Notes under the pieces: generated by a model | Seen by the model: the letters and a program-made list of their open reading frames with translations, nothing else | Database searches by the model: none | Told to the model about the DNA's origin: nothing | Shown here: one piece after another, positions 32,357 to 49,310 of the stretch | How positions within the stretch are numbered: the first letter of the stretch is position 1 | How the letters are laid out: the number at the start of each line of letters is the position of its first letter | Program-made: the position numbers and the translations under genes | Origin: Paraburkholderia ginsengiterrae | Lineage (GTDB): Bacteria > Pseudomonadota > Gammaproteobacteria > Burkholderiales > Burkholderiaceae | Direction: 5' to 3' | Length of the DNA: 64,000 nt | Assembly: GCF_001645125.1 (NCBI RefSeq) | Contig: NZ_LXKA01000243.1 | Coordinates: 1-64,000 of the forward strand

Positions 32357-35260
32357 TCAGAAATCCACCTTGGCGACGAACTTGATGCTGCGGTCCATCC
32401 CGATGCCGAGCGTGCCGGTCTGCACGGAATTCCAGTAGCGCTTGTTGAACAGGTTGTCGATGGCCGCCTTGAAATCGACGCGCTTGCCGGCGATGGTGGT
32501 CACGTACCCGACGCCGAGCGACCAGATCGTGTAGCCGGGAATGTAGCCCTGATCCTGCGGGTTCACCGGACGCTTCGTGATGAACGACGCCCGCGCCGTC
32601 AGCGACAGGCCGGGCAGCCATACCGGACGGTGCGTCAGGGCGATGTTGCCGATCCACTTCGGCGTGTTTTCCGGCGTGAGGCCGCGAATCAGCATGTCGT
32701 ACATCGGGTTCTGCACCGCATGCAGATACTCCACGGCTTCGGACACCGACCACTGACGCGAGATGTCCTGCGTCAGCACCGCCTCCATCCCCTGATACTT
32801 GATCGTGCCGTCGTTCGCGAAGACGTTCGTGATCGGGTCGGTCACCGCGTTGGCGCGAGTGATCTGGAACACGGAGGCCGTGAACTGCAGCCACTTGAGG
32901 TAGTTCTCGCGCACACCGACCTCGTACTGCGTCGACACGGCCGGCGCGAGAATCTGGTACGCGTTCTTCGCGTTCTCCGGCGCGACCCCGCCGTCTTCGA
33001 GGCCCTTCATGTAGCTCGCGAACAGCGTGGTTGCCGGCAGGAATTCGTAGAGGATGCCGGCCGCGGGCGACGGCACCCACACCGACGCCGACTTGTCGCC
33101 GGTGGTCGCGGTGGACCGGCTCTCGCGGAAGCCGAGCAGCACCTTCCACTTCGGCCCCAAGGAGATGCTGTCATACGCATACAAGCCGACATCCTCGTCG
33201 ATCTGGATCGGCAGCGCCGTGCCCGGATGAGTCGGCACGGGCGCGGGTAGCGCGACCGGATCGAAGATGTTGGTCTTCACCGGAATCACGATCGTGTTCT
33301 GCGAGAGCGTCTCGTCGATGCGCTGGCTGTCCGACACGCCGAGGGTCAGGTTGTGCCCCACCGGCCCCGTGTCGAACACACCCTGCAATTCGGCCCGCTT
33401 GTACTTGTTGAAGTAGTTCGCCGAGATCTCGCTGACCGTCGGCACGCCGCCGGCGCCCGTAAAGACGTTGTAGCCGCCGATCCGCGTGGTCAGGCGCGAG
33501 CGGTCGCCGTCCGACTGACCGATTTCGGCGAGGGCCTGCCAGCCTGGCGCGATGGTGTAGTCGACCCGCCCCTGCACGTTCTCTATCCTGGCGTTGAATA
33601 GCGCCCACGGGCCCGACAGCAGAATCCTCGGGTCCGGCACGCGCGGCACCGTGATCTGGCCGTTGACGGCCTTCGGCAGACTGATGCCGGCCTGTTCGAC
33701 CACCTGCTTGCTGTACGCTTCGTAGTCGAACTCGACGTGCAGCCGGTCGGTCACGTTCCAGTCCGCGCCGACGCTGCCGAACCAGCCGCGTCCGCCCGTG
33801 CCCCGCACGCCATTCTCGAGATGCGTATCGGACGCATTGACGCGGATCCCGAACTGCTTCTCGTTGCCGAACCGATGGCTCACGTCGGCCGCGACACCTA
33901 TTTGCCCGAACGAATTGCCGAGTATCGCGAGCGACGCCACGTCCTGATCGGGCGCGCGCTTCGTCACCATGTTGATGATGCCCGCCGGGCTCGCGACGCC
34001 GAACATCAGCGCGTTCGCGCCCTTCAGCGTTTCGACGCGTTGCTTGTCCTCCGACGGCACCGACATCACGTTCGCGGTCGGGAGGCCGCCGTTGAGCCGG
34101 TAGTTCGCGAACAGGTTGACCTTGATGCCGCGGATCTGCGCCGCATCCGCCGGGCTGCCCGACGAGTTGGTCGGCGACACGCCGGCCTGGTTCTTGACCG
34201 CGTCGGTCACGCCGTCCTGCGCACTCTGCAGCGCGGCGGCGCCCGTCACCTGCTTGCTCACCGGCATCGAATCGGTGTTGCCGACCGATTCCTGAGCGAA
34301 TTGCTCTGCGATCACCGACGTTGCAGCCTGCGAGCGCGTCGGTACGTAGAGCGCGGCCGCGTCGCGGATGCGCGGGCGCAGTTCGTCGCGGATCTTCTCC
34401 GCTTTCTTCACGAGCGCCGCCTGCTCGTCGCCGCTGCGATACGGCATCACGACGCCGAGCGCGCCGACGGTCGCCCCTGCCGCATCCTGCAGCGGCAGTT
34501 CCACTTCCAGGCGATCGCCGTCATGGCCGACTTCGACATGCGGCTTGCCCGATTCGATCACGGCCAGGTCGTCCGCATCGGCGGGCTTGCCGATGCGTCC
34601 GATGTTCGACGCGACGATCGGATAGTCGCCGCTCGGGCCCGGGCGCGCGGCGTGCATCGCGAGCACCATCACGTCCCGGCGTTTGCTGATCACGTCGTCG
34701 ACGAGGTTCTGCGCATACGGATTCGCCGGGATGCCGGTATCGGCGAGCACTGGGTCGAACATCTCATTGGCGTAGCGGATCTGCCGGCTCAGTTCGTCGC
34801 GAATGAGCGCGCCCGCGCTGATCAGCGCGTCCTTATCCATGCTCGATCCCGGCGGATACGGAAACGACATCTCGACTTCGCCGATCACCTTGCGCGTCAC
34901 GTCGAGGAGCGGCAAATGCACCTCGACGTTCTGATCGGCGCGCTTATTGATTTCGATGAAGGGCGTATCGGTCTTGACGACCGCAAGATCGTCCGGGTCC
35001 GACTTCGCGCCGATCCGCTTCGCCGATTTCGCGGCGACGATGACGCTTGTGGTGCTGCCGGGCGGCCGCATGTGAAGATCAAGCTCGACGAGCTCCGGGT
35101 GCCGTGCCGTCGTGCGGTCGACCAGCTGCTGCGCGTAAGTCTTCGACTGCCCCGGCTGTTCAGCCTGCGCCCCCCCCTGCGGAGCGTTGTCCGCCTGCGC
35201 GTAGAGCGCGGGTGAAAACACGGCCAAGACGGCCATCGCCACCATCGTCCTTTTTATCAC
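32357..35260 (-). CDS. TonB-dependent receptor with two N-terminal Cache-like domains
   Basis: A 967-residue outer-membrane receptor. The GTG start has GGAGG 5-6 nt upstream and gives a clean signal peptide (ending ALYAQA, residue 23). Two copies of a domain of about 120 residues follow (about 42-160 and 170-290), each starting YAQxLVD and containing a DPDDLAV/ADADDLAV loop and a late IRDEL helix. The plug (about 310-440, AAQIRGIKVNLFANYRLNGG and NALMFGVASPAGIINMVTKR) and a siderophore-type 22-strand barrel follow to the terminal KVDF. Siderophore receptors normally carry one secretin-like signalling domain here instead. The same extra domain occurs alone in two exported proteins at 46872 and 48756. 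Confidence 0.9.
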   Translation of the reverse strand: MIKRTMVAMAVLAVFSPALYAQADNAPQGGAQAEQPGQSKTYAQQLVDRTTARHPELVELDLHMRPPGSTTSVIVAAKSAKRIGAKSDPDDLAVVKTDTPFIEINKRADQNVEVHLPLLDVTRKVIGEVEMSFPYPPGSSMDKDALISAGALIRDELSRQIRYANEMFDPVLADTGIPANPYAQNLVDDVISKRRDVMVLAMHAARPGPSGDYPIVASNIGRIGKPADADDLAVIESGKPHVEVGHDGDRLEVELPLQDAAGATVGALGVVMPYRSGDEQAALVKKAEKIRDELRPRIRDAAALYVPTRSQAATSVIAEQFAQESVGNTDSMPVSKQVTGAAALQSAQDGVTDAVKNQAGVSPTNSSGSPADAAQIRGIKVNLFANYRLNGGLPTANVMSVPSEDKQRVETLKGANALMFGVASPAGIINMVTKRAPDQDVASLAILGNSFGQIGVAADVSHRFGNEKQFGIRVNASDTHLENGVRGTGGRGWFGSVGADWNVTDRLHVEFDYEAYSKQVVEQAGISLPKAVNGQITVPRVPDPRILLSGPWALFNARIENVQGRVDYTIAPGWQALAEIGQSDGDRSRLTTRIGGYNVFTGAGGVPTVSEISANYFNKYKRAELQGVFDTGPVGHNLTLGVSDSQRIDETLSQNTIVIPVKTNIFDPVALPAPVPTHPGTALPIQIDEDVGLYAYDSISLGPKWKVLLGFRESRSTATTGDKSASVWVPSPAAGILYEFLPATTLFASYMKGLEDGGVAPENAKNAYQILAPAVSTQYEVGVRENYLKWLQFTASVFQITRANAVTDPITNVFANDGTIKYQGMEAVLTQDISRQWSVSEAVEYLHAVQNPMYDMLIRGLTPENTPKWIGNIALTHRPVWLPGLSLTARASFITKRPVNPQDQGYIPGYTIWSLGVGYVTTIAGKRVDFKAAIDNLFNKRYWNSVQTGTLGIGMDRSIKFVAKVDF

Positions 35261-35358
35261 TGTCTCCTCCACGTTACTTGTAATGTCGATATCCAAATCG
35301 TCCCGGTCAAGCTTCGCGTCGGATCCGCACGCGTGCAACGCCGCCGCCCGCCCTCCGA

Positions 35359-37419
35359 TCAAATGTCCAGCACCAGCAAATCACTCTTCGCTCTCGAGCA
35401 GCAGGGCGTGAAATGCCCGTCGTCCTCGCGCTGCTCAGCCGTCAGCACGCAGTCGAGGTGCTCGACCTCGCCGTCGATCACGCGCGTCACGCAGGAGCCG
35501 CAGAAACCTTGCTCGCACGAGGTCGGGATACGGATGCCGTATTCGGCCAGCGACGCGGTGATGGTCTTGTGCTCCGCGATCCGGTAGATCCGCCCCGTGC
35601 TCGCGAGCTGGACGTCGAAGGCACGTGCGAGCTTCGGCTTGCCCGCGTGCGCGGCGAAGCGCTCGCAGTGCAGTTGCCGCTCCGGCCAGCCGCGCCGCCG
35701 CGCCGCGAACATCGTCGCGTCGATGAAGCCGGCGGGTCCGCAGACGTACAGATGCGTGATCGGCGACTGCCTGTTGAGCACACGCTCAATATCGAAGCGC
35801 TGCTCGACGGGGCCGTCACTGAAGTGGCACTGCACGCGATTCGCGAACGGCGCACGCACGAGCCGGTTCAGGAACGCCGCGCGGGGCCGTGAACGCGCGC
35901 AGTAATGCATCTCGAAGTCGGCGTCGCGTCGCGCGAGGCGCTCTGCCATGCCGAGAATCGGCGTGATGCCGATGCCGCCCGCGAGCAGCAGCGAACGCGG
36001 CGCCGCTTCATCCAGCGCGAAGCGATTGCGCGGCGCGCCGATGTCGAGCAGGTCGCCTTCGCGAACACGATCGTGCAACGCGGTCGATCCGCCGCGCGAT
36101 CCGTTGACGCGCAGCACGGCTATCAGGTAGCGCCGTCGCTCGCTCGGAGCGTTGCACAGCGAGTACTGACGCACGAGGCCGTCGCCGAGAAACACGTCGA
36201 TATGCGCGCCGGCGGCGAACGGCGGCAATTTTCGTCCGCGCGGGTCGATCAATTCGAACGCGCACACGCCGTCGGCTTCGATCGTCTTCTTCGCGACGCG
36301 CACTGTCAGCCGGGCGTCGCCGGATGCCGCGCCGCGAATGCGGCGCAGGAAGTTGCGCACGCCGGTGTAAGCGAGCACCGGCACCGCCAGCGCGCCGAAC
36401 AGCAGCAGCAGCTGCCCGAACACGCCGCCGACCGCGCCGGTATGCCATGACAGCACCCAGAAGTACAGCTTGTGCCCGGCGCTGCTCGTCGAATACGGCA
36501 CGAAGCGCAGCACGTTGCCCGAATACGCGTCGAGGTCCAGCATCGTGCGCGCATTCGGATGCGGCGCGTAGCGATCGATCAGATACATCTCGACCGGGTC
36601 GCGCGACGTCTCAGGGATGTGCATCAGCGCATCCTGCGGGTCGGGCGACAGCAACTGAGCGGTGCGCCAGAACGTCTCGAGCGGCAGGCGCTTCGCGCCG
36701 TCCGCCGGCGCCGCCGACTGCGGGGCCTTGGCGGGCTGCGGCGAGCCGGCGATCGCATAGATGCCGTGCGCGTACCAGTCGAATGCCCACGGCAATCCGG
36801 TCAGTACCATCGACAACAGCACCGCGCTCGCATACGCGCCGACTGTTCGATGCAGCCGGAACGTGAACGCGGGGCCTCGCGAAGCGGCGCCAAGCGTGAC
36901 CGCGTACCGCCAGCCACGACGCGTGCGCGGCCACCAGAGCACGACACCGCCCACGATCAGCAGCAATCCGAACGACATCGCGCTCGTGCCGGTGATCAGG
37001 CTGCCGTGCTTCATGAAACGAAAGCGATGAATCTGCTCGATCGTGCCGAGCAGGCCGCCATAGCGCGAGCGCTCTCCCAGCACCGCGCCGGTACACGGAT
37101 TGAGATAGACCGAATGCTGATCGTTGAAACGCACCATCGCGGCGGGCATGCGCGGCTCGCCCTCTTTGCCGGCGACAAGCCGGATGTAATCGGGCATCGC
37201 AGTCGGCCGGACGTGTGCTGCGTTGTCGACCAGCGTATCGAGCGGCACGCGCTCGGTGCAGGTCGGCACCGTCAGCAGGTCACGCTCGAGCACGGCCTCG
37301 AGGTCGGAACGGAAGACGATGGATGCGCCGGTGATCGCCATCAGGAGAATCACGCATCCAAAGGTCAAGCCGCACCAGCGATGGACTTGCAGCACGAAAG
37401 GACGAAAGACCGATTTCAT
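35359..37419 (-). CDS. PepSY membrane domain fused to FMN/2Fe-2S ferredoxin reductase
   Basis: A 686-residue inner-membrane protein. Residues 1 to about 410 form a PepSY-TM domain with four or five helices (VHRWCGLTFGCVILLMAITG, LLLIVGGVVLWWPRTRRGW, FRLHRTVGAYASAVLLSMVL). The C-terminal 260 residues are a phthalate-dioxygenase-reductase-like module: flavin site RQYSLCNAP, pyridine-nucleotide site LLLAGGIGITPILGMA and plant-type 2Fe-2S cluster site CEQGFCGSC with a later cysteine. It should pass electrons from NAD(P)H across or to the membrane, most simply to reduce a metal chelate delivered by the TonB receptor, as PepSY reductases do for siderophores. It is first in the seven-gene operon. 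Confidence 0.85.
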   Translation of the reverse strand: MKSVFRPFVLQVHRWCGLTFGCVILLMAITGASIVFRSDLEAVLERDLLTVPTCTERVPLDTLVDNAAHVRPTAMPDYIRLVAGKEGEPRMPAAMVRFNDQHSVYLNPCTGAVLGERSRYGGLLGTIEQIHRFRFMKHGSLITGTSAMSFGLLLIVGGVVLWWPRTRRGWRYAVTLGAASRGPAFTFRLHRTVGAYASAVLLSMVLTGLPWAFDWYAHGIYAIAGSPQPAKAPQSAAPADGAKRLPLETFWRTAQLLSPDPQDALMHIPETSRDPVEMYLIDRYAPHPNARTMLDLDAYSGNVLRFVPYSTSSAGHKLYFWVLSWHTGAVGGVFGQLLLLFGALAVPVLAYTGVRNFLRRIRGAASGDARLTVRVAKKTIEADGVCAFELIDPRGRKLPPFAAGAHIDVFLGDGLVRQYSLCNAPSERRRYLIAVLRVNGSRGGSTALHDRVREGDLLDIGAPRNRFALDEAAPRSLLLAGGIGITPILGMAERLARRDADFEMHYCARSRPRAAFLNRLVRAPFANRVQCHFSDGPVEQRFDIERVLNRQSPITHLYVCGPAGFIDATMFAARRRGWPERQLHCERFAAHAGKPKLARAFDVQLASTGRIYRIAEHKTITASLAEYGIRIPTSCEQGFCGSCVTRVIDGEVEHLDCVLTAEQREDDGHFTPCCSRAKSDLLVLDI

Positions 37420-37469
37420 AAGGTTGCCTAAGCGACGACGGTTTACATCCACCATCTTTGTCGGCAAAC

Positions 37470-37490
37470 CTGAATGAAAGCTGAATTTAG
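37470..37490 (-). promoter_or_regulatory. Phased TTCAG repeat (response-regulator box candidate) A
   Basis: On the plus strand CTGAAT occurs twice exactly 11 bp apart (37470 and 37481), so ATTCAG repeats read toward the PepSY/TonB operon, 51-71 nt before its start. Eleven-base direct repeats are the usual layout of OmpR/PhoB-family boxes. Confidence 0.6.
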
Positions 37491-37572
37491 GGCTGCGTCG
37501 GGGTAAGTCCCGATAGGTGATCTGCATGCGAAGATCGCATGCGGCGCCGATACGACCGAACACACCGCGAAC

Positions 37573-37610: not shown

Positions 37611-37705
37611 GAATATCGGGAGAAACCCGGCTCATCGCGATGCTTCGCTTGTCACGTCAATCTGCGTGCGCTAGCCTGAAGTTACCGTCGACTGGCCCAT
37701 TTATC

Positions 37706-38371
37706 ATGAAAATCCTGATTCTCGAAGACCAACGCAAGCTGGGTCTTTTCCTCAAGCAGGCGCTGTCCGAACGCGCGTACACCGTGACTTGGGTCGAAAG
37801 CTGCGCGCAGGCACGCGAAGCGCTGTGCGAATCGAGCTACGACGTGATCGTGCTCGACCTGGGCCTGCCCGACGGCGATGGTCTCGACCTGCTGCGCGAG
37901 TGGCGCGGGGCCGGCTTCAACGAGCCGGTGCTGATCCTGAGCGCGCGCGACGCGGTCGAGGATCGCATCAAGGGACTCGACGTCGGCGCGGACGATTACC
38001 TGCCGAAGCCATTCAGCCTCGAAGAGCTGCTCGCGCGCATGCGCTCGCTGTTGCGGCGCCAGTCGTCGGTGAAGGAAACCGTGCTCCAGCATCAGGGCAT
38101 CAAGCTCGACCTGCTGAGCCGCACCGTTCACCTGAACGGCAAACCGGTCGACCTGACGAGCCGCGAATTCGCGCTGCTCGAGATCTTCCTGCAGAATCCG
38201 GGCCGCATCCTCACGCGCACGCTGATCGCGGAAAAGATCTGGGAATCCCATTACGACGTTGACACCAATCTGCTCGACGTCTACATGAGCCGCCTGCGCG
38301 GCAAGTTCGAGGCGCCGCTCGGCAAGCCGTTGTTCAAGACGGTGCGCGGCGTCGGCTATCAGCTGCTATGA
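37706..38371 (+). CDS. OmpR-family response regulator of the cluster
   Basis: A 221-residue regulator. The receiver domain has LILEDQRKLG, the phosphoacceptor D51 in VIVLDLGLPDGDG, LILSARD and YLPKPFSLEELLARM. The winged-helix part is LTSREFALLEIFLQNPG to VRGVGYQLL. It resembles the QseB/CusR-like branch. It is divergent from the PepSY/TonB operon and overlaps the histidine kinase gene by 4 nt. The 11-bp phased TTCAG repeats around the cluster are its likely targets, which is inferred and not shown. Confidence 0.9.
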   Translation: MKILILEDQRKLGLFLKQALSERAYTVTWVESCAQAREALCESSYDVIVLDLGLPDGDGLDLLREWRGAGFNEPVLILSARDAVEDRIKGLDVGADDYLPKPFSLEELLARMRSLLRRQSSVKETVLQHQGIKLDLLSRTVHLNGKPVDLTSREFALLEIFLQNPGRILTRTLIAEKIWESHYDVDTNLLDVYMSRLRGKFEAPLGKPLFKTVRGVGYQLL

Positions 38372-39783
38372 AATCCATCGGCGCGCGCCTCGCGATCTGC
38401 TACGTTCTCGCGTCGACCATTACCTTCGCGGCACTGTTCCTGACCGGGCGGTATTTCGTCGAATATCACGCAATCCACGCGCTGGACCTGGTCATCCATT
38501 CGGAGTTCGAGCAGATCCGCGCGAATGTCGCCGCGCTTGGTCCGACGCCGCCGGAAGCGGCGCTGCGCGAGCGCATGCAGGCTGTGACGCGCAACGATCT
38601 CGAACTGTTCTTCACCGAGATCTACGGGCCCGGCGGCACGATCGTCTATCGCTCGCCCGGGCTGCGCGGATTCGACATGATTCCGTCTGCCCGCGATCAG
38701 GAGTTCAACGTCAATCTTGCGGGCCTCGACGAGCTGCGCGCCGGCAAGTTCGCGCTCGGCCCGTACACGGTCGTGATAGCGACGACGAAGCACCACGTGC
38801 GCGTGGTCATGAGCGGATACGAGCGCACGTTCTACGGGCTGCTGCTCGTGATGATCGCGGTCAGCAGCGTGATCGGCTATGGCTTCAGCCGTATGGCACT
38901 GCGTCCGCTGCGGCTGATTCAGGATACGGCCGACCGCATCCGCTCGGACAATCTGAGCGAACGCATTCCGGTATCGAGTGCGCGTGACGAGATTTCGGAT
39001 CTCGCGCGCCTGCTCAATCAGATGTTCGACCGCCTCGAAGAGTCGTTCACCCAGATCCGCCGGTTTACCGCCGAGGCCTCTCACGAACTCAAAACCCCGC
39101 TGACCCTCGTGCGCCTGCAGGCCGAGAAGCTCGTCGTCGACGGCCAGTTGACGCCGGCGCAGGAACATGCGGTGCAGATCCAGATCAAGGAGCTCGCGCA
39201 ACTCAACCGGATCATCGAGGATCTGCTGTTTCTGTCGCGCGCCGACGCGTGCGCGATCACGCTCGATCTGCGGCAGCAGGATCCCGAACCGTTCCTGCAG
39301 AGCTTCGCGCAGGACGCGCACGTGCTCGCCGAGTATCGCGAGCAGCGCTTTAACCTGACGCACCACGGCGCGGGGCAGGTTGCAATCGAGCCGAAGTGGA
39401 TACGCCAGGTGCTGCTTAACCTGCTCAGCAATGCGCTGTCGGCGTCCCCGCCGGGCAGCCGCGTGACTGTGCGCTCCACGCTGGTCAATCGCTGCTGGCA
39501 AGTGCGTGTCGAGGACGAGGGCCCAGGCGTGCCAGCCGAGCAGCGCGAGCGGATTTTCGAGCGTTTCGTCCGCATCAATCGCCCCGGCAACGAAGACAAG
39601 GGCAGCGGCCTCGGCCTCGCGATCTGCCGCAGCATCGTCGCGCTGCACGGCGGCCGCATCTTCGCAGAAGCCGGCCCCGGTGGCCACGGGCTGTCGATGG
39701 TGTTCGAGATTCCGGCAACAACGTCTCCCGACGATGCCGGCAGCGTGCCGTTCGGCACCCCGCATTTGACCGACGCCGCCTGA
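38368..39783 (+). CDS. Sensor histidine kinase of the cluster
   Basis: A 471-residue membrane kinase. Helices at about 8-28 and 155-178 enclose a periplasmic sensor domain of about 125 residues. A HAMP domain follows (SRMALRPLRLIQDTADRIRS), then HisKA with the phosphorylated histidine in FTAEASHELKTPLTLVRLQ. The ATPase domain shows NLLSNALSASPPG, VEDEGPGVP and GSGLGLAICRSIV. The start overlaps the regulator stop as ATGA. The signal is unknown; the cluster suggests a periplasmic ligand or metal. Confidence 0.9.
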   Translation: MKSIGARLAICYVLASTITFAALFLTGRYFVEYHAIHALDLVIHSEFEQIRANVAALGPTPPEAALRERMQAVTRNDLELFFTEIYGPGGTIVYRSPGLRGFDMIPSARDQEFNVNLAGLDELRAGKFALGPYTVVIATTKHHVRVVMSGYERTFYGLLLVMIAVSSVIGYGFSRMALRPLRLIQDTADRIRSDNLSERIPVSSARDEISDLARLLNQMFDRLEESFTQIRRFTAEASHELKTPLTLVRLQAEKLVVDGQLTPAQEHAVQIQIKELAQLNRIIEDLLFLSRADACAITLDLRQQDPEPFLQSFAQDAHVLAEYREQRFNLTHHGAGQVAIEPKWIRQVLLNLLSNALSASPPGSRVTVRSTLVNRCWQVRVEDEGPGVPAEQRERIFERFVRINRPGNEDKGSGLGLAICRSIVALHGGRIFAEAGPGGHGLSMVFEIPATTSPDDAGSVPFGTPHLTDAA

Positions 39784-39816: not shown

Positions 39817-40626
39817 TCAGAGGTCGCGCTGATAGCCGACGTAGTAGGAAAAGCGATTGGTGTCGTTGACGTGCGTGATGCCGCGCCCAACGGAGAACAG
39901 GATCCGATCGTGCTCGCTCAGTCCGTAGCTGCCGCCAACGTTGAAGCCGAGCGCGGAAGGATCGATCGTGGTCGCCGCGCCGGTGTAGAACAGCTCGCCG
40001 CCGAGTTCGAGCTTGTCGCCGAACTTGCGCAGCACGGCCCAGCCGGCGGTCCAGTAGCCCTTCTGTCCCGCGTGACGGTTGACGACGTAGCCGCCGCCGC
40101 CGAAGGTTGTCCAGTCGCCGATCGACTTCTGCATCCACAGCGGCAGCAGCACCTGCACATGTCCGGTGCCAAGATCCAGGTGATCGTTGCCGGTCGGCAG
40201 CGTCACGCTCGGCGAGAACGCGACCTGCGGACGCCAGCCCGCTTCGTCCTCCGTAATGAAGCGATATTTCGCACCGAGGTCGATATCGCCGAAACCGTAT
40301 CGGGTCGGGTTGCCCGACTCGTGCGTGAACGCCATGCCGAACTTCGTGCCGATCTCCAGATTGTCCAGCAATCCATAGTTGACTTCGAGACCCGGCAGCA
40401 TCCCGCTGTGGCTGCCCTCGCGCACGGTGCCGATCGCGGCGGCGTCGATCTGGAAGTGCCCTCGGTCGATGGGCTCGGGATCGTCGGTCACGAACGGCGG
40501 GCCGGCGAACGCGCCATGACTGGCAAGGCAGGCACCGAGCGCGAGCATCGCATGAATGATCCGGACGCGACGCGGCCTGCGCCGTGCGGCTGGTTGCCGC
40601 GGCGTCGAATGACGGCTGAATAACAT
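39817..40626 (-). CDS. Outer-membrane beta-barrel protein, phenol MetA-like (PF13557-type)
   Basis: A 269-residue exported protein. After a basic, arginine-rich lead and a signal segment (MLALGACLASHGAFA) it shows GPPFVTDDPEPIDRGHFQID, a hallmark of MetA-like transporter barrels. Regular amphipathic strands follow (YGLLDNLEIGTKFGMAF, PQVAFSPSVTLPTGND), ending with the aromatic SYYVGYQRDL. The family is usually called an outer-membrane transporter without known substrate. It is read in the same direction as the ABC genes beside it. Confidence 0.75.
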   Translation of the reverse strand: MLFSRHSTPRQPAARRRPRRVRIIHAMLALGACLASHGAFAGPPFVTDDPEPIDRGHFQIDAAAIGTVREGSHSGMLPGLEVNYGLLDNLEIGTKFGMAFTHESGNPTRYGFGDIDLGAKYRFITEDEAGWRPQVAFSPSVTLPTGNDHLDLGTGHVQVLLPLWMQKSIGDWTTFGGGGYVVNRHAGQKGYWTAGWAVLRKFGDKLELGGELFYTGAATTIDPSALGFNVGGSYGLSEHDRILFSVGRGITHVNDTNRFSYYVGYQRDL

Positions 40627-40715: not shown

Positions 40716-41585
40716 TCAATGACCTGCGTCGGAGAACTGCGGCGGGCGCCACTTCAGCAGCTTGTTCTCGACTTGCGTGAGGATGAACTCGGCGCCGAGC
40801 GCGACGACGGCGAGCACGATCATCGCGGCGAACACACCGGCGGCGTTGAACGCGCCTTGCGCGGTCGAGATCAGGAGGCCAATGCCCTGCTTCGAGCCGA
40901 GAAACTCGCCGACCACGGCGCCGACGAGCGCAAAGCCGAAGCTCACGTGCAGACTCGCGAGAATCCAGCTCATCGCGGCCGGCAGCACGACCGTCAGCGT
41001 CACATCGCGATTTGTTGCACCCAGGATGTGCGCGTTGGCGATCAGATTGCGATCCGCCTCGCGCACGCCCTGGAACGCATTCGCGAACACCACGAAAAAC
41101 ACCATCACGACCGCCAGCGCGACCTTCGACGCCATGCCGAGCCCGAGCGCGATGATGAACACCGAGCCGAGCACCACACGCGGAATCGAGTTGGCGATCT
41201 TGATGTAGATGCTGAACACGTCCGCGAGCAGCTTGTTCCGGCCGAGCGCGATCCCGGCTACCACTCCGCCCACCGCGCCGATCAGGAAGCCGAGCGAAGT
41301 CTCTTCGAGCGTCACCAGCACCTGCACCCACAACGGCCCTTGCGACGTGCCCTCGGTCAACCACTGCCAGATCTGCGCGGCGATCAGCGAGGGCGTCGAG
41401 AAAAAGAACGGATCGATCCAGCCGAGCCGGCCGGCCAGCTCCCACCCGCCGAGCGTCACGACTAGCACGGCGACTTGCAACGTGTGCACCAGCATCTTGC
41501 GCCGGCGCATGCTCTCCTGAGCCCGCGTTTCGAGCTGACGCATCTCGGCTTCGTGCGGGGCGGTTCCTGTCATCGGTGTATTCAT
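40716..41585 (-). CDS. ABC transporter permease, taurine/sulfonate (SsuC/TauC) type
   Basis: A 289-residue inner-membrane permease with about six helices. The binding-protein-dependent transport signature is NAHILGATNRDVTLTVVLPAAM, preceded by GSVFIIALGLGMASKVALAVVMVFF. The preferred ATG has GAGGAA about 6 nt upstream; an in-frame start four codons earlier has less support. It partners the ATPase 27 bp upstream and the binding protein at 42521. Confidence 0.92.
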   Translation of the reverse strand: MNTPMTGTAPHEAEMRQLETRAQESMRRRKMLVHTLQVAVLVVTLGGWELAGRLGWIDPFFFSTPSLIAAQIWQWLTEGTSQGPLWVQVLVTLEETSLGFLIGAVGGVVAGIALGRNKLLADVFSIYIKIANSIPRVVLGSVFIIALGLGMASKVALAVVMVFFVVFANAFQGVREADRNLIANAHILGATNRDVTLTVVLPAAMSWILASLHVSFGFALVGAVVGEFLGSKQGIGLLISTAQGAFNAAGVFAAMIVLAVVALGAEFILTQVENKLLKWRPPQFSDAGH

Positions 41586-41612
41586 GCTGTTCCTCAACGC
41601 GCCGCGAAGCGC

Positions 41613-42431
41613 TCAGATGTGGACCTCGTCGCGGAGATCGTTCCAGATCTGACGCGACAATTCGATAAAGCGGGGGGAATAGCGCGCCTCCCCGACATCG
41701 CGCGGGCGCGCCAGATCGATCTCATACGACGTCTTGACGGTAGCGGGCCCCGCCGTCAGCACGAACACCTTGTCGGCCAGCGCGATCGCCTCCTCGATGT
41801 CGTGCGTGACGAACACCACCGATGCGCCGTTCGCGCTCCACAGGTGCAGCAGCTCGTCCTGCATCAGCGTGCGCGTCTGCACGTCGAGGGCGGAGAACGG
41901 CTCGTCCATCAGCAGGATTTCGGGCTCGTTAATAAAGGTTTGCGCGAGCGCGACGCGCTTGCGCATGCCACCCGAGAGCTGGTGCGGATAGTGGTGCTCG
42001 AAGCGCACGAGGCCGACGCGGCGAATCCATTCCATCGCGCGGTCGCGCGCCGCCGACTTGTTCTCTCCGCGATACAGCGGACCGGCCGCGACGTTGTCGA
42101 GCACGCTCTTCCACGGAAATACCGCGTCGGCCTGGAACACGAAGCCGATGCGCGGATCGATGCCACTCACCGGATTGCCCCAGATGCGGACGTTACCGGC
42201 ACTGGGCTTCGCAAGACCGGTGATGAGGCTCAGCGTGGTGGATTTGCCGCAGCCGGTCGGGCCGACGACGGCGCAGAACTCGCCCTTCGCGACAGTCATG
42301 CTGAAGTTGCGCAGCGCCATGATCGCCTTGCCTTCCGGGCTGACGAAGCGGCGGCTGACGCGATCGAGCTCGATCGCCGGCACGTCGTTGCCGGCGCAGG
42401 TGTGCAGCGCGGTTACCTTGGGGGCTGTCAT
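41613..42431 (-). CDS. ABC transporter ATPase, taurine/sulfonate (SsuB/TauB) type
   Basis: A 272-residue ATPase with Walker A VVGPTGCGKSTTLSLITGL, Q-loop FVFQADAVFPW, signature HQLSGGMRKRVALAQ, Walker B ILLMDEPFSALD and H-loop VVFVTHDIEEA. FPWKSVLDNV and GENKSAARDRA match the nitrate/sulfonate/taurine subfamily. The start is the ATG at 42431. Confidence 0.93.
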   Translation of the reverse strand: MTAPKVTALHTCAGNDVPAIELDRVSRRFVSPEGKAIMALRNFSMTVAKGEFCAVVGPTGCGKSTTLSLITGLAKPSAGNVRIWGNPVSGIDPRIGFVFQADAVFPWKSVLDNVAAGPLYRGENKSAARDRAMEWIRRVGLVRFEHHYPHQLSGGMRKRVALAQTFINEPEILLMDEPFSALDVQTRTLMQDELLHLWSANGASVVFVTHDIEEAIALADKVFVLTAGPATVKTSYEIDLARPRDVGEARYSPRFIELSRQIWNDLRDEVHI

Positions 42432-42520
42432 TGGATTGCCTGCCTTAGCCAGATTGGGCCAGATTGAAATCGACGAAGTGCCCGCGACTGTCCGGCGGAG
42501 GAACATCGCGGCGGGCGCGG

Positions 42521-43528
42521 TTACTTGACCTGCACGGCGCTGACGAACTCGGTCGTGTAAGTCTTCGACAGATCGATCTTGTGGCCCGCCACCGCTTTGT
42601 CGAACGACGACAGGACCTTGAGCACGGTCGGCGGACCCGATTCCGGCATGCGGCCATCCGGGATGAACGTGACCTTGCCGCCAGCGAGCGCCTTCACGTA
42701 CGCGGTGCGATCGCCCGCGTAGTAGTCGGTGGGCATCTGCGCGGTGATCTCGTCGGCGCTATGCGTGTTGATGTAGTGCAGCGTCTTGACGAACGCATTC
42801 GTGAGCTTCTGGACCGTCGCCTTGTGCGATTGCACCCAGTCGTTCTGCATGTAAAGGCTTGCTGCCGGATAGAGTCCGCCTAGCCATTTCTGCGTGCTTT
42901 CCGGCGAGCGCAGATCGATCAGCACCTTCGCGTCGCCGCCGTTGACGAGGCGCGAGACCGTTGGCTCGGTCGTCATGCCACCGTCGATCTTGCCCTGCTT
43001 GATGGCGGCGATGAACGTGTTGCCGGCGCCGACCGCGAGCGAAGTCATCTCCGACGTCTGCACCCCGTGCGACACGCCCAGATACTGCGTGAGGAAGTTC
43101 GTCGACGAGCCGAGCCCGGTGACACCGAGCGTCAGCCCGCGAAAGTCCGCTGGCGATTTGACCTTGTTGGCCAGCCTCGTCGAGATCACCTCGACTTCGC
43201 CCGGCGTATGGCTGAACTGCACGACCGACTCGATGTACTTGCCCTTCGCCTGCAAGTCAATCGTGTGATCGTAGAAGCCGACGACGCCTTGCACCGTTCC
43301 GGCGACGAGTTCGTTCTCGGCATCGACGCCGGCCGCCTCGTTGATGAGCTCGACGTCGAGGCCCTGTTCCTTGAAATAGCCGAGACGCTCGGCGAGCTTG
43401 GCCGGCAGATAGATCTGCTTTTCCATGCCGCCGACAATCAGCGTGAGCTTCTCGTCGGCGTGGACGGCCGGGGCCAGGGCGCCGAGCGACAGCGCGCCAA
43501 CGGCAAGGCGCAGGATTGTCTGTTTCAT
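42521..43528 (-). CDS. ABC transporter substrate-binding protein, taurine/nitrate type
   Basis: A 335-residue exported binding protein (signal peptide about 1-24, ALAPAVHADE). LPAKLAERLGYFKEQGLDVELINEA, then GTVQGVVGFYDHTIDLQAKG and LGVTGLGSSTNFLTQYLGV show the SsuA/TauA/NMT1 fold. It is 89 bp upstream of the ATPase and is the obvious partner of that transporter. The paralogue at 30446 shares the C-terminal pattern HYINTHSADEI and YTTEFVSA. The ligand is unknown. Confidence 0.88.
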   Translation of the reverse strand: MKQTILRLAVGALSLGALAPAVHADEKLTLIVGGMEKQIYLPAKLAERLGYFKEQGLDVELINEAAGVDAENELVAGTVQGVVGFYDHTIDLQAKGKYIESVVQFSHTPGEVEVISTRLANKVKSPADFRGLTLGVTGLGSSTNFLTQYLGVSHGVQTSEMTSLAVGAGNTFIAAIKQGKIDGGMTTEPTVSRLVNGGDAKVLIDLRSPESTQKWLGGLYPAASLYMQNDWVQSHKATVQKLTNAFVKTLHYINTHSADEITAQMPTDYYAGDRTAYVKALAGGKVTFIPDGRMPESGPPTVLKVLSSFDKAVAGHKIDLSKTYTTEFVSAVQVK

Positions 43529-43711: not shown

Positions 43712-45265
43712 CTACCGTAGCTTCGCCAGTTCCTCGCGCGCCTCGGCCGCGGTCAGCGGGAAATAAGCCGAATAGCGCACCGGCTCCTGACCCTCGCGGC
43801 TCAGGATGTAGCGCAGGAACGCCTTCACCGGCGCACTCAGCGGACGGTTGATCCGGATGTACATGTAGCGCGTCAGCGGATAGCGGCCGCTCGACGCGTT
43901 CTGCGCATCGAGCGTGTAGAACGGCTCGCCCGCGCGTCGCGCTACCTCGAGGGTCTTCAGGCCGGGGCCGCCTTCCTCGAGCCCGCCGAAACCGATTGCG
44001 CCGGCATCGCGGGCGATCGCTCGCGCGGTATCGTCGATCGAGCCCTCCTGCACGGCAGCGTTCCACGGCCCGCCTCCAAGCACCATGATCTGCATCGACA
44101 TCGCGTTGGGTGCGACGTGCGGCGGCATGTAGATCGTGATCGGACGGTCCGCCCACGCGCCGGTCAGGCCGAGCTGCCCCCAGCGGGTAATGCCGGGGTT
44201 GCGCTGCAGGATCGACGCGAGCTGTGTCAGCGTGATGCCGGTAAGTGGATTGTCCGGGTGCACGAAGACCGCCTGCGCCGTCGTGCGCTGCGGCGTGTTG
44301 AAACCGCCGCGTGCGACGCGAATTTCGAGCGGCTCGGCGCCGTGACGGACCTGCGCGTATGCTGCCCGCTCGTCCGGCCACAGCTCGCGGCCCATCGGCG
44401 CGATCTCGGTGTCCCCGTCGAGCAGCGCGTGAAAACCGTTCAGCGTGCCGAGATGCTCCCATCGCTCGCCCTTTTGCACGCCCGGCTGCACGTGCTCGAA
44501 TGCACCGATCCAAGTGTCCATTAGCGATTTCATGCCGTCGCTGCCGATGCTGTCGATCGCGCCGTGCAAGCCGGCCACCGGACGATAGCCGGGCAGCGCC
44601 GCATCCAGGGGCGGCAGGAAGCCGTCGAGCTTCGCGCGTTCGCGAGCCGCATCATCGGCGGTGAGCGGTGTGTAATGCGGCTGCGCCGAGACGATCGACT
44701 GCCCTTCCCCGCTCAGCGCGAATTCTAGAAACGCCTTGATCCTGGGCGGTAACGGCGCGCCGGGACGCCGGTTCACCGCGAGATACGCGGGCTGACCGTC
44801 GCGATCCGCGACGCGCACGAGCAGCGGCGCCTTCATCATGTCGCCCGCGTACTGATGCGCGTACGGCTGCAACTCCGTCGGCAACGGCTCGCGCGCGAGC
44901 GGCGCGATGTCGGCGTCGCCGAACATCAGCCCGCCGAACGCGGTCGCACTGCCCGCGTGACGCCAGTTTGGCCCGCGCCGGATGCCGGGCTGGTATCGCT
45001 CGAATGCCGCCAGCCATGCGTCGAGCAGCGGCCCCATCGCATCGTCGCCGACGCAATTCAGTGCTCCGCTCAGATTCGCGTCGGGTCGATAGGTGGGCAG
45101 GCTGGCGCCGGGATCCGCCGCGAACGCGAGACAGGCGGCCAGTGCGAGACCGGCCGCGGCACCGCGCCGGAGCACCGGTCGCAAGCCCTGCGCGTGAAAC
45201 TGGGAGGGGCGCGACGCGCGCGCGAGCGGCCGGGCGCGCCACAAGGAAAAACCGAAAGGGACCAC
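43712..45265 (-). CDS. Exported protein with two PstS-like binding domains
   Basis: A 517-residue protein from a GTG start with GGAG upstream and a signal peptide at about 32-50 (AAAGLALAACLAFAADPG). Two PstS-like units follow: a shorter one at about 55-215 (SGALNCVGDDAMGPLLDAWL, LMFGDADIAPLAREPLP) and a full one at about 220-517 (GAIDSIGSDGMKSLMDTWIG, LLDGDTEIAPMGRELWP, ITRWGQLGLTGAWADRPITI). The phosphate-binding RSDGSGT loop of true PstS is absent; the region reads IYMPPHVAPNAMSM. No PstA, PstB or PstC is nearby. The ligand is therefore probably not phosphate. Confidence 0.8.
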   Translation of the reverse strand: MVPFGFSLWRARPLARASRPSQFHAQGLRPVLRRGAAAGLALAACLAFAADPGASLPTYRPDANLSGALNCVGDDAMGPLLDAWLAAFERYQPGIRRGPNWRHAGSATAFGGLMFGDADIAPLAREPLPTELQPYAHQYAGDMMKAPLLVRVADRDGQPAYLAVNRRPGAPLPPRIKAFLEFALSGEGQSIVSAQPHYTPLTADDAARERAKLDGFLPPLDAALPGYRPVAGLHGAIDSIGSDGMKSLMDTWIGAFEHVQPGVQKGERWEHLGTLNGFHALLDGDTEIAPMGRELWPDERAAYAQVRHGAEPLEIRVARGGFNTPQRTTAQAVFVHPDNPLTGITLTQLASILQRNPGITRWGQLGLTGAWADRPITIYMPPHVAPNAMSMQIMVLGGGPWNAAVQEGSIDDTARAIARDAGAIGFGGLEEGGPGLKTLEVARRAGEPFYTLDAQNASSGRYPLTRYMYIRINRPLSAPVKAFLRYILSREGQEPVRYSAYFPLTAAEAREELAKLR

Positions 45266-45312: not shown

Positions 45313-45339
45313 CTGAAGCGAACCTGAATCAACGCTGAA
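45313..45339 (-). promoter_or_regulatory. Phased TTCAG repeat D (three perfect units)
   Basis: CTGAA occurs at 45313, 45324 and 45335, exactly 11 bp apart, 48-74 nt before the double PstS-like gene. Read toward that gene the units are TTCAG. This is the clearest of the boxes. Confidence 0.72.
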
Positions 45340-45378
45340 ATTTCGTTCATCCTCGGCCCGGCATTCCATGAACGCATT

Positions 45379-45405
45379 TTCAGGATGCCTTCAGACTGCG
45401 TTCAT
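45379..45405 (+). promoter_or_regulatory. Phased TTCAG repeat E
   Basis: TTCAG, TTCAG and TTCAT at 45379, 45390 and 45401, each 11 bp apart, oriented toward the plus-strand PstS-like gene that starts at 45562. Together with the mirror set at 45313 this makes a two-sided divergent control region. Confidence 0.7.
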
Positions 45406-45561
45406 TCAACGGCGGTATCGTGATTTCGCATTGGCTCGCTCCCTGGTTTGCCTGATTTCGCGCCGGTCGGCACTACGCTCACAATTGACCTATTGGCGCC
45501 GCCGACCACACATCGAAGCGGTCCGTAAAACGCACGCATTCAAAAAAGGAGGAGATATCTC

Positions 45562-46773
45562 GTGAATCGAAACGAACCCTGTTTCGCGGCGCCCGCGTCC
45601 GGCCCGGCCCACCATCTGCGCTATCTGGCCGTGGCCGCGGCCGCTGCGACAGCCGCGTCATGGGCGATGAACGCCGAATGCGCGGACGCCCAGGGCACCA
45701 CCGCACCGCCGATGGTCGAATGGGTTGTGCCTGCGCTGAAAACAGTCGCGCCGCAGACCAAGGAGCAAGCCGACGAGGGCGAGAAGTCGGGACGCGCGCT
45801 GCCCGAGCCGGAAATCCTGCAGCCACGCCTCGACGCCGCATTGCCCGACTATCAGCCCCGCACCGACCTCAAACTGTCAGGCTCGTTCGCGGGCGCGACC
45901 TCGGACGTGCTGCCATTTCTCGCTCAACGCTGGATCGAAGGCTTCAAGAAGTACTATCCAAACGTCGACATTCACATTGCGCCGCCGTACGCGGGCAGCC
46001 TCGGCGCGAAGGAACTGGTCAAGCAGAAGCTCGACTTCGTGTTCGTGTCGCGCGAGCTGAAGCCGAGCGACATCACCGACTTCAAGGCCAAATTTGGCTA
46101 CGACCCGCTGAGCGTTCCGGTCTCCGGCGGCTCGTACCGGCATTTCGGCTTCCTCGACGCCGTCGGCTTCTTCGTCAATAAGGACAACCCGATAGAGAAG
46201 CTGACGTATCAGCAGATCGACGCGCTGTTCTCGCGCACGCACCTGCGCGGCGGCAAGCCGATCAAGACCTGGGGCGATCTCGGGCTGACCGGTGACTGGG
46301 CGGACAAGCCCGTGCACGTCTACGCGATCAAGCCGTGGAACGGTTTCGAGGAGTTCGTCCGGCAACGCGTGCTGAGCACCGACGGTCAGCGCGGCGAGTG
46401 GCGCGACGACATCCATTACGACAAGCTGGTGTTCCCGCTCGCGAAGGACGTTGCCGACGATCGCTACGGCATCGGCTACTCCGGCATCGCGTACATCGAC
46501 GCGCCGGTCAAGATGCTGCCGCTCGCCGTTTCGGACAACGCCCCGTTCGTCGCGCCGACTTACGAAAACGTCGCGCGTGCAACGTACCCGCTAAGCCGCC
46601 TGATCTGCTTCAACACCAACAAGGCGCCAGGCAAGCCGCTCGAACCTGCTATCGCCGAGTTTCTGCGCTACGTGCTCAGCAAGCAGGGCCAGCAAGCCGT
46701 GCTCGACCACGGGATGTACATGCCGCTGCGCGCGCAGCAAGTAGACAGCTCGCGCGCGATGCTGAGCCCCTGA
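45562..46773 (+). CDS. Exported PstS-like binding protein 2
   Basis: A 403-residue protein. The GTG start has AAGGAGGAG upstream. A hydrophobic signal segment (about 15-37) and a linker of about 50 residues precede the PstS-like fold: SGSFAGATSDVLPFLAQRWI, PYAGSLGAKELVKQKLDFVFVSREL, KTWGDLGLTGDWADKPVHVY and FVAPTYENVARATYPLSRLI. In place of RSxGSGT it has AIKPWNGFEEFV, so the phosphate site is not conserved. It opens a plus-strand group with the small Cache-like protein 99 bp behind. Confidence 0.82.
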   Translation: MNRNEPCFAAPASGPAHHLRYLAVAAAAATAASWAMNAECADAQGTTAPPMVEWVVPALKTVAPQTKEQADEGEKSGRALPEPEILQPRLDAALPDYQPRTDLKLSGSFAGATSDVLPFLAQRWIEGFKKYYPNVDIHIAPPYAGSLGAKELVKQKLDFVFVSRELKPSDITDFKAKFGYDPLSVPVSGGSYRHFGFLDAVGFFVNKDNPIEKLTYQQIDALFSRTHLRGGKPIKTWGDLGLTGDWADKPVHVYAIKPWNGFEEFVRQRVLSTDGQRGEWRDDIHYDKLVFPLAKDVADDRYGIGYSGIAYIDAPVKMLPLAVSDNAPFVAPTYENVARATYPLSRLICFNTNKAPGKPLEPAIAEFLRYVLSKQGQQAVLDHGMYMPLRAQQVDSSRAMLSP

Positions 46774-46871
46774 CGCTTCCGCTGAACTTTCGCCGCCTCA
46801 CTTCCGCCGTATCCCGTGCCGCCCGCTCGCCTTTTTCGTTTGCGGGCGGCAACTTCTTCAGGAGCTTCCCC

Positions 46872-47336
46872 ATGCACCGCTCATCCAGAGCCGCGACCGC
46901 GGCGCTGCTGCTCGCATTCGCGCTGCCCGCGCGCGCCGGGATGCAAGCCGCGCCTTACGCGCAGCAACTCGTCGACACCACGCTCGCCGCGCATCCCGAG
47001 TTGACGATTCTCGCGCTTCACGTCACGCCGCCCGCCGGCGCGGAAAACGTGATCATCGCGTCGAATATTGGCCGCATTGGCAAGCCGGCCGACGCGGACG
47101 ATCTGGCCGTGCTCGGCAGCGGCAAGCCGCGTGTCGAGACCACAAAGACCGGCGACCTCTCGGTCGAGCTGCCGATGCGCGACGCCGCGGGCCAGACCAT
47201 CGGCGTGATCGGCTCGACATTCCACTACACGCCCGGCGGCGACCGCGACGTAATCGTGCAGCAGGCCGAGCGCGTGCGCGACGAACTCGCTGCCCGCACG
47301 CCGTCGCTGTCCGCGCTGTTCCAGCCGGCACACTGA
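46872..47336 (+). CDS. Small exported Cache-like protein 1
   Basis: A 154-residue protein with signal peptide (MHRSSRAATAALLLAFALPA, cleavage after RARA near 22) and a single domain that repeats the extra domain of the cluster's TonB receptor. YAQQLVDTTLAAHPELTILA aligns with the receptor's YAQQLVDRTTARHPELVELD. SNIGRIGKPADADDLAV is identical to a segment of the receptor's second copy. GxIGVIGxxFxY and the late RVRDEL helix are also shared. The pattern resembles single-Cache (PDC-type) sensor domains, but here it is free in the periplasm with no kinase attached. Confidence 0.75.
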   Translation: MHRSSRAATAALLLAFALPARAGMQAAPYAQQLVDTTLAAHPELTILALHVTPPAGAENVIIASNIGRIGKPADADDLAVLGSGKPRVETTKTGDLSVELPMRDAAGQTIGVIGSTFHYTPGGDRDVIVQQAERVRDELAARTPSLSALFQPAH

Positions 47337-47364
47337 ACGTCGCCGGCGCATTCCTGAATTTTCA

Positions 47365-47391
47365 TTCAGACGAACTTCAGGTCGGCTTTAA
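47365..47391 (+). promoter_or_regulatory. Phased TTCAG repeat F
   Basis: TTCAG, TTCAG and TTTAA at 47365, 47376 and 47387, each 11 bp apart, about 125-150 nt before the third PstS-like gene. A partial palindrome (TTCCTGAAT, gap, ATTCAG) sits at its left side, as in box B. Confidence 0.65.
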
Positions 47392-47516
47392 CTTCGTGGA
47401 CGACGATATTGACAGGCGACCTCATTGAGCGCGGTACGCACCGGCTCCGCCACCGCCGTCGGGCCTGCATGCGCGGCCACCCGATCGACAACGACGACAC
47501 AAATCAGGAGACGTCC

Positions 47517-48617
47517 ATGAAGCAACAGAAGGAGATGCGCGTTTTGCGCAAGTACGCGGCAGTCTCGAGCGCAGCGATGATTGGCATCGCGGCGCTCGGC
47601 ACGCTAGCGTCGCCGTCCGCGTTCGCGCTGAAATATGCAGCGGTCGAGCATCACCTCACGGTCGACTCGTCGATTCCGAGCTGGCAGCCGGGCCCGGTCG
47701 ACGTGCACCCCGAAGAGGAACTGAACATTGTCGGCGCGGACGTGATGGACGAAATCACGCTCGGCTGGATCAAGGAATTCCGCGAGGCGTATCCGCGCCT
47801 GAGCGTGACGATGGAAGCGCGGGCGTCCGGCTCGGGCGGCCCGGCGCTCACCGCGGGAACGGCGGATCTGGCGCCAGTCGGACGTGAGCTGCTGCCCGCC
47901 GAGGAGAAAGCGTTCGTCGACAAGTACGGCTACAAGCCGCTCGCGATCCGCGTGGCGACCGGCAGCGTCGGCTCGCTCGGCAAGACCGCGGCGTCGGTCG
48001 TGATCGTCGACAAGGACAATCCGATCAAAGGCCTCACGCTCGCGCAACTCGACGCGATCTATTCGAAGACGCGCAATCGCGGACACGCCGACATCAGCAC
48101 ATGGGGCGATCTGGGGCTCGGCGGCGACTGGGCCAACCGGCCGATACACCTGTACGGCCTGAAGCCGGTCAACGGCATCGAGTACTACCTGCAGATGAAC
48201 GTGCTCGAAGGCGGCGCTTACAAGGACAACATCCAGTTCGTGAAGGGCAAAGGCTTCACGCACGCGTTCACGGTCGCTGCCGAGGACATGGCAACGCATC
48301 CGGGCGGACTCACCTACGCGCTGCTCGCGAACGTCAGGCCGAACGTGAAGGTCGTGCCGCTCGCCACAACCGACGGGCAGCCGTTCGTACTGCCGACGGT
48401 GCAGACCGTCTACACGCACCAGTATCCGCTGTCGCGCTATGTGTACATCTTCGTGAACAAGAAGCCCGGCGAGCCGCTGCAGCCGAAGATCAAGGAGTTC
48501 CTGAAGCTCGTGCTGAGCAAGCAGGGCCAGGACGTCGTTGCGAAGGAAGGCGTCTACATTCCGCTGACCCCGGCCGTCGTGAAGGAAGAGCTGGCGAAGC
48601 TCGATCAGGCGAGTTGA
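47517..48617 (+). CDS. Exported PstS-like binding protein 3
   Basis: A 366-residue protein. The ATG is preceded by AGGAGACGTCC. The signal peptide is at about 18-38 (AAMIGIAALGTLASPSAFA). The binding-protein fold shows NIVGADVMDEITLGWIKEFR, ARASGSGGPALTAGTADLAP, STWGDLGLGGDWANRPIHLY and TVYTHQYPLSRYVYIFVNKK. It is a close relative of the proteins at 45562 and 43712 and likewise lacks the RSxGSGT phosphate loop (LKPVNGIEYY instead). Confidence 0.82.
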   Translation: MKQQKEMRVLRKYAAVSSAAMIGIAALGTLASPSAFALKYAAVEHHLTVDSSIPSWQPGPVDVHPEEELNIVGADVMDEITLGWIKEFREAYPRLSVTMEARASGSGGPALTAGTADLAPVGRELLPAEEKAFVDKYGYKPLAIRVATGSVGSLGKTAASVVIVDKDNPIKGLTLAQLDAIYSKTRNRGHADISTWGDLGLGGDWANRPIHLYGLKPVNGIEYYLQMNVLEGGAYKDNIQFVKGKGFTHAFTVAAEDMATHPGGLTYALLANVRPNVKVVPLATTDGQPFVLPTVQTVYTHQYPLSRYVYIFVNKKPGEPLQPKIKEFLKLVLSKQGQDVVAKEGVYIPLTPAVVKEELAKLDQAS

Positions 48618-48663
48618 ATGCGCAACCGCGCGGGCGGGCGCGCCGTTGCAAGCTGAATTCGCA

Positions 48664-48689
48664 TTCAGATGACGTTAACGCTCGTTCAA
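48664..48689 (+). promoter_or_regulatory. Phased TTCAG repeat G
   Basis: TTCAG at 48664, TTAAC at 48675 (11 bp later) and TTCAA at 48685 (10 bp later), 67-92 nt before the second small Cache-like gene. It also has the partial palindrome CTGAATTCGCATTCAG. Confidence 0.55.
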
Positions 48690-48755
48690 GGTGGCGAACC
48701 TACACTCGACTCGCACCTGCTTTCATCACGCTCGTATGACAAACAGAGGAGAGAC

Positions 48756-49310
48756 ATGAAGACCCTGACCCAAACCCTTCTCATCGCGATGTTCGGCGCC
48801 ATGTCGGCATCCGCGGTGTACGCGGCCGATGCAGCGCCTGCCGCTCCCGCCGCCCCTGAAGCGCACCCGAAGAACTGGACGCCGCCGAGCGAGAAGATCT
48901 ACGCGCAAAAGCTGTCCGACCAGATCATGGCGCAGCACCCCGAACTGCTCAGCGTGACGTTCCACGGCACACCTCCGGGCATGACGGATGGGTACACAAT
49001 GTTCGCCGGCTCCTATCACGACCGCATCGGCAACGCCGACGATCCGGATGACATCGACATCTCGAAGAAGGGCATCACGATCGTCGATCCGCGCTGGCAC
49101 CGCCCGAACGATACCGTCCAGAAGTTCGTCATGATGCTGCCGCTGCGTGACGCGAAAGGCAATAACGTCGGCGAAATCGTGCTCGCGTACAAGAACGACG
49201 CCGCGCACACGAAGAGCGAGACGCAGTTCTTCCTCGCGTCGACGCACCTGCGCGATGCGCTTGCCAAGCAGATTCCGACCTTCGGCACGCTGTTCGAGGC
49301 CGCCAAGTAA
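48756..49310 (+). CDS. Small exported Cache-like protein 2
   Basis: A 184-residue protein. The ATG has GAGGAGAG upstream. The signal peptide ends near residue 24 (SASAVYAAD), and an alanine/proline linker precedes the domain. IYAQKLSDQIMAQHPELLSV, then FAGSYHDRIGNADDPDDIDI, MMLPLRDAKGNNVGEIVLAY and HLRDALAKQIPTF match the TonB receptor's extra domain and the 154-residue protein, with about 15 additional residues in the loop (PRWHRPNDTVQKF). A hairpin terminator follows. Confidence 0.72.
   Translation: MKTLTQTLLIAMFGAMSASAVYAADAAPAAPAAPEAHPKNWTPPSEKIYAQKLSDQIMAQHPELLSVTFHGTPPGMTDGYTMFAGSYHDRIGNADDPDDIDISKKGITIVDPRWHRPNDTVQKFVMMLPLRDAKGNNVGEIVLAYKNDAAHTKSETQFFLASTHLRDALAKQIPTFGTLFEAAK

Follow-up and report, generated by a model that had tools for sequence, protein, structure and literature searches.

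A stretch of 64,000 bp from the genome of Paraburkholderia ginsengiterrae (contig NZ_LXKA01000243.1, positions 1 to 64,000; here called the window) revealed a TonB-dependent receptor of the siderophore-receptor type that harbors two Cache-like domains, D1 and D2, within its first 300 residues, followed by the TonB plug and barrel. Two exported proteins encoded nearby, S1 and S2, are each made up of a signal-peptide-like start and a single domain of the same family. All four domains are homologous, and in other soil bacteria the module is again encoded next to, or fused with, partner proteins of the same types, which points to an undescribed periplasmic uptake machinery. Our reading, held at a probability of roughly 0.45, is that they form the docking and hand-over module of a metallophore-type uptake island. 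The positions of all features are listed in Table 1.

Pairwise comparison related D1, D2, S1, and S2 to one another in all six combinations (BLAST identity of 28–49%), with local scores of 115–310 against at most 67 in shuffled sequences (1,000 per pair; z of 18–49), and their alignment contains 21 invariant columns. The stretch SNIGRIGKPADADDLAV is identical in D2 and the protein starting at 46872 (S1). A preliminary description of this DNA had reported two domains on the receptor and two exported proteins with an identical stretch in one pair; positions, protein lengths, and homology were all borne out, and the domain length of about 120 residues given there is slightly corrected to about 125–138. 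It had also considered that the domain might be an unrelated, common receptor extension or be missing from the small proteins. D1 and D2 matched no known receptor extension in Pfam or NCBIfam, and S1 and S2 share the domain. Eight residues of the family pattern (Q9, H28, R46, D52, D54, D55, D82, and R114) are kept in all four copies, which suggests that they share a task. When the 8.5 Mb genome of the same strain was searched at the protein level (E 0.001), no copies beyond these four came up.

In the receptor, the Pfam scan detected the plug and two barrel models and nothing else; its product reached the NCBIfam siderophore-receptor model TIGR01783 (226.1 bits, cut-off 223.5), and the nearest chains in the PDB were FemA and BauA. 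Translation probably starts with the GTG at 35260, which by eye has GGAGGAG ahead and a signal-peptide-like stretch after it, the TTG at 35362 being merely the mechanical start of the open reading frame (ORF). The model of the full receptor reached a mean predicted local distance difference test (pLDDT) value of 65.4, with about 25–35 in the plug, and its D1 and D2 parts alone were put to use. A search by eye for a TonB box found a TSVIA/STVAA-like string between D2 and the plug in the receptors of Paraburkholderia, Burkholderia, and Pandoraea, not in those of Ralstonia.

Cache domains are best known for their sensing role in kinases, cyclases, and chemoreceptors. A profile of 109 family members found its best PDB matches in the Cache domains of DcuS and CitA (E 0.015 and up), and the Pfam family matched by most members was sCache_3_2 (11 of 109, best E 6.2e-5). 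For S1, S2, and the receptor themselves, Pfam gave no match to a Cache model at E up to 1. The model of S1 (pLDDT 96) displays a PAS/GAF/Cache fold, namely an antiparallel sheet with N- and C-terminal helices in PAS/GAF order, and all nine weak matches outside the family that a profile search of 369 genomes returned overlap PAS domains. Because GAF and IclR-type domains outrank Cache in Foldseek and VIA, the statement that Cache is nearest rests on sequence profiles with modest E-values (best 0.015); DcuS is not among the best 50 VIA matches listed, which excludes nothing. GAF domains such as that of A. aeolicus NLH1 differ in that the window copies are exported, as read from their signal peptides, and that the profile points to Cache. 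We therefore assign the window domains, by profile and model, to the PAS/GAF/Cache fold superfamily, and the name Cache-like, proposed in the preliminary description, holds with respect to the fold as seen by profile, structure, and genome-wide search, though without a Pfam Cache match or a signalling output.

The window domains are not classical Cache sensors with cytoplasmic output. No signalling output part was detected by Pfam on the receptor, which has plug and barrel only, or on S1 or S2, and nine relatives scanned contained, besides Cache-like domains, only propeller parts, TonB parts, or nothing. While the family resembles the single Cache 3 domains of DcuS and CitA in its best profile matches, its top Pfam family, and its fold class, it differs in having a signal peptide, in lacking transmembrane helices and a kinase, and in occurring on a TonB receptor, on a propeller, or free. 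The D-x-D-D loop was also considered as an EF-hand; this was set aside because DcuS and CitA carry acidic residues at the same alignment position, where they may cap a helix. A precedent for Cache domains outside classical receptors is SMP_2, presented in a 2016 survey as a family of the Cache superfamily without known output domain (PMC4822843). The main text of that survey mentions no TonB receptor (the word TonB has no occurrence there), the survey's models derive from proteins that carry output domains, and SMP_2 is likened to the present family by description only.

The module is spread widely but unevenly. A pattern-limited scan of genome contigs yielded 84 relatives, of which 80, in 72 loci, were kept (loci are cited below by L numbers), and a plasmid collection contributed four records, namely Paraburkholderia PGU19, two of Polymorphobacter, and Azoarcus KH32C. 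An iterated profile was run on the stop-to-stop ORFs of the relatives' loci and the window, with identical ORFs and other loci of the same genome dropped, and detected the module in 125 distinct ORFs. Sorted by length, these comprise 83 ORFs of a single domain and nothing else, 17 of two domains, and one of three, 15 TonB receptors including that of the window (13 with two domains, two with one), and nine tandem proteins whose tail is shorter. Seven of the nine tails are propellers; the other two are cut by contig ends, one of them (L062) being a receptor and the other lying in L023. According to record titles, the carriers include Burkholderia, Paraburkholderia, Pandoraea, Ralstonia, Collimonas, and Rhodanobacter as well as Sphingomonas, Acidobacteria, Opitutae, and Eremiobacterota. 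With S1 as query, no match was obtained in 24 further congeners or in 16 further members of the order, and a profile search of the genus was positive in 10 of 145 genomes, including the one studied here. In six of these ten the full set is found, that is, two domains in a frame of about 1,000 residues plus two free copies. This patchy distribution suggests the movement of a set, and we infer that the island has spread horizontally.

The tandem of two domains thus exists as a free protein, joined to TonB receptors, and joined to propellers. Each of the seven propeller fusions compared has a propeller part that is 45–51% identical to the free YncE-like propeller of the window over 307–359 residues. 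A tree of 109 domains contains a branch that separates the 27 first-position domains, be they free, on a receptor, or on a propeller, from the other 82. Support of this branch is 52/53 in a tree of few columns, so that one ancient tandem behind the three forms is suggested rather than shown. S2 belongs to a distinct subfamily of 34 tree rows (support 100/100).

Gene neighborhoods were counted within 5 kb of Cache-like ORFs on 70 distinct contigs, whose stretches differ in length, the counts for propeller and receptor including the fused proteins themselves. A propeller was found on 53 contigs, a PstS-like gene on 42, a TonB receptor on 41, a histidine kinase on 35, a response regulator on 29 (in 23 cases with 60% identity or more to that of the window), an NMT1-like gene on 19, and a PepSY gene on 12. 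The yardstick for these numbers is the strain's own genome rather than random loci of other genomes: there, a single YncE-like gene and three PstS-like genes of this kind were detected (E 1e-8), and all of them lie in the window. For the 53 S2-like ORFs (single-domain ORFs matched over at least 133 residues), the next gene detected within 500 bases was a propeller in 22 cases, a PstS-like gene in four, and a TonB receptor in one; none was detected in 24, and two had no room. Long runs of PstS-like genes lie beside Cache-like genes in some relatives, with nine in L014, eight in L067, and six in L066 (about 20 kb each). The fusion of Cache-like domains to a receptor with soluble versions beside it, as the preliminary description had it, is present, and the layout is wider than noted there, comprising propeller fusions, PstS-like proteins, the propeller itself, and often a two-component system.

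Based on these data, the four copies may be understood as one periplasmic Cache-like module of a mobile island around a siderophore-type TonB receptor. The receptor tandem would hang into the periplasm ahead of the plug, at the place where FecA/FemA-type receptors have their STN domain, and would act as a platform on which the soluble copies, the YncE-like propeller, and perhaps the PstS-like proteins are received and dock. Imported cargo, probably a chelated metal or the organic part of the chelate, would then be handed on or reported inside the periplasm. Since the tandem is fused to two partners that are also encoded nearby, receptor, Cache-like proteins, and propeller are suggested to meet in the periplasm. 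Several points weigh against such a docking and hand-over module. Residue R46 or part of the D-x-D-D loop is missing in some Ralstonia receptor domains, the receptor fusion is restricted in this sample to Burkholderiales-type receptors and one deltaproteobacterial metagenome-assembled genome, and the cut-off of TIGR01783 is passed narrowly. Moreover, a propeller was undetected within 5 kb on 17 of the 70 contigs and a TonB receptor on 29, counts to be read with some stretches being short and BLAST detection of receptors being incomplete. A bolder version appears unlikely to us. In it, the tandem would be the hub of a so far undescribed, TonB-coupled periplasmic machine that has spread horizontally through several phyla; its free, receptor, and propeller copies would co-assemble, and a sensor fold familiar from kinases would thereby gate directly, on the transporter's periplasmic side, how an imported metal chelate is handed over.

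The likeliest alternative, though improbable in itself, is surface signalling, in which the tandem replaces STN and reports receptor occupancy to the kinase, directly or via the soluble copies, and so induces the island. STN is the signalling domain of FecA/FemA-type TonB receptors; the tandem takes its N-terminal place before the plug and barrel as in FemA, the nearest solved receptor, Cache-type folds are mainly sensory, and kinase and regulator genes recur beside the module as counted above. STN itself has another fold, and no STN match was found in the window receptor by Pfam scan. Against direct signalling to the kinase, the sensor part of that protein has no Pfam match of its own and is its least conserved part, with 21–33% identity in 25 of the 35 kinases aligned; the remaining ten reach 51–72% there, four of them being repeats of the same contig. 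To our knowledge, no TonB receptor signals straight to a histidine kinase.

Alternatively, in a plain relay or buffer of the kind considered in the preliminary description, one small molecule might be bound by all copies and travel from the receptor via soluble carriers to the ABC (ATP-binding cassette) importer, which we regard as unlikely. Small-molecule binding is frequent among relatives of the fold, an ABC importer and binding proteins adjoin the copies, and the polar pattern is common to all four despite identities of 28–49%. In DcuS, the dicarboxylate is bound by the pocket residues Arg107, His110, and Arg147 (PMC8639471). Mapped by counting along the sequence alignment with an assumed chain numbering, the corresponding columns in the window copies read V/V/P/M, A/A/A/G, and S/E/E/V, with no basic counterpart, and basic residues occur at them in two, none, and none of the 109 members. 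That paper itself cautions against sequence alignments here. Since the window copies seem to lack the basic residues of DcuS, the fold by itself does not imply that they bind a ligand. Very unlikely, finally, is a passive extension that merely stabilises or spaces proteins and lacks any specific partner or ligand: receptors do differ in how many domains they carry, two of them (in L013 and L026) having one only, but the polar pattern is conserved and the fusions involve two different proteins that are both also neighbors. In Pandoraea terrae, the receptor at L013:14786-17734 is a second copy from which D2 is cleanly gone, with D1, linker, and barrel kept.

For the docking and hand-over module, our best guess of the substrate is a metal chelate, with the siderophore-type receptor, the adjoining PepSY reductase with its 2Fe-2S domain, and a kinase nearest to the heavy-metal sensor group as clues. 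Uptake of lanthanides is a lead by analogy. The lut lanthanide-uptake cluster of Methylorubrum extorquens, as described in passages of PMC7391723 and PMC8969499, likewise unites a TonB receptor, an ABC importer, and small exported proteins, a likeness of layout. The lead concerns lut-like or xoxF-linked gene arrangements that include YncE and TonB genes (PMC7391723, PMC8969499, and PMC10875860). A difference is that the lut passages of PMC7391723 and PMC8969499 name no Cache-like domain. Citrate was also considered, with hints from the kinship to DcuS and CitA, from an annotated 2-hydroxycarboxylate transporter and a citrate-lyase-type gene in L006, and from a TctC match in L056. It was not adopted because the DcuS pocket residues are seemingly not kept and the close copy (88%) of the coenzyme A (CoA)-ligase-like gene in the present genome lies on another contig. 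Large CoA-ligase-like proteins of the citrate-lyase type, a further hint at citrate, are encoded near the island in L005:28297-31002, L006:695-3406, L010:14945-17758, and L011:19470-20378 (the last partial); one of three scanned gave a weak match to citrate synthase.

A literature search recognised no description of this layout, an absence that is weak with subscription journals mostly outside reach. A Cache family outside signalling proteins, on the inner face of a transporter, free, or on a propeller, would extend the known roles of the fold. It would also make testable a neglected step, namely what takes up a substrate after the TonB receptor has admitted it to the periplasm, and with the same parts turning up in many soil bacteria, the system lends itself to comparative and biochemical work.

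Table 1. Features of the Cache-like island and adjoining genes in the window
Feature	Position	Strand	Basis or remark
NMT1-type binding protein (second)	30446..31486	-	Pfam
Exported-looking protein of no known family, adjoins receptor	31509..32312	-	no Pfam/NCBIfam match
TonB-dependent receptor, siderophore-receptor type, two N-terminal Cache-like domains	32357..35260	-	Pfam, NCBIfam, PDB
Cache-like domain D2 of receptor	~34331..34735	-	residues 177-300 of 962-residue model
Cache-like domain D1 of receptor	~34736..35149	-	residues 37-163 of 962-residue model
PepSY membrane protein, reductase and 2Fe-2S domains	35359..37563	-	Pfam
Response regulator	37640..38371	+	88% identity to annotated response regulator in L005
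Sensor histidine kinase	38368..39783	+	heavy-metal sensor kinase group as top NCBIfam match, score below cut-off
ABC permease, ATPase, and NMT1-type binding protein (three genes)	40716..43528	-	binding protein by Pfam
Larger PstS-like protein, divergent	43712..45265	-	PF12849, two stretches
PstS-like binding protein	45562..46773	+	PF12849; TIGR02136 below cut-off
S1, exported protein, one Cache-like domain, 154 residues	46872..47336	+	model pLDDT 96.4
PstS-like binding protein between S1 and S2	47409..48617	+	PF12849; TIGR02136 below cut-off
S2, exported protein, one Cache-like domain, 184 residues, distinct subfamily	48756..49310	+	tree
YncE-like beta-propeller, 89 bases after S2	49400..50509	+	Pfam and NCBIfam, both below cut-off

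The plus-strand run of PstS-like gene, S1, PstS-like gene, S2, and propeller has gaps of 72–138 bases and looks like an operon. Among the other genes of the island, the ABC permease and ATPase match annotated L005 genes at 83% and 79% identity, and the exported-looking protein next to the receptor has homologues in eight of 75 loci, where it lies beside the receptor or the PepSY gene in several relatives. No sigma/anti-sigma genes of the FecI/FecR type were recognised in the window translations read by eye, part of the ORFs having been scanned. An exported protein encoded at 39817-40626 (minus strand) has no Pfam or NCBIfam match and by eye the look of an outer-membrane barrel; its homologue in L005, 68% identical, is annotated as 'transporter'. 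Near the Collimonas island, L015:3061-3864 encodes a DUF347 membrane protein whose cluster spans four loci. Directly following the island, three minus-strand genes at 24582-30429 read by eye as a resistance-nodulation-division (RND) efflux operon, and homologues of the RND adaptor and outer-membrane components also lie near the island in two Burkholderia relatives (L038 and L040).

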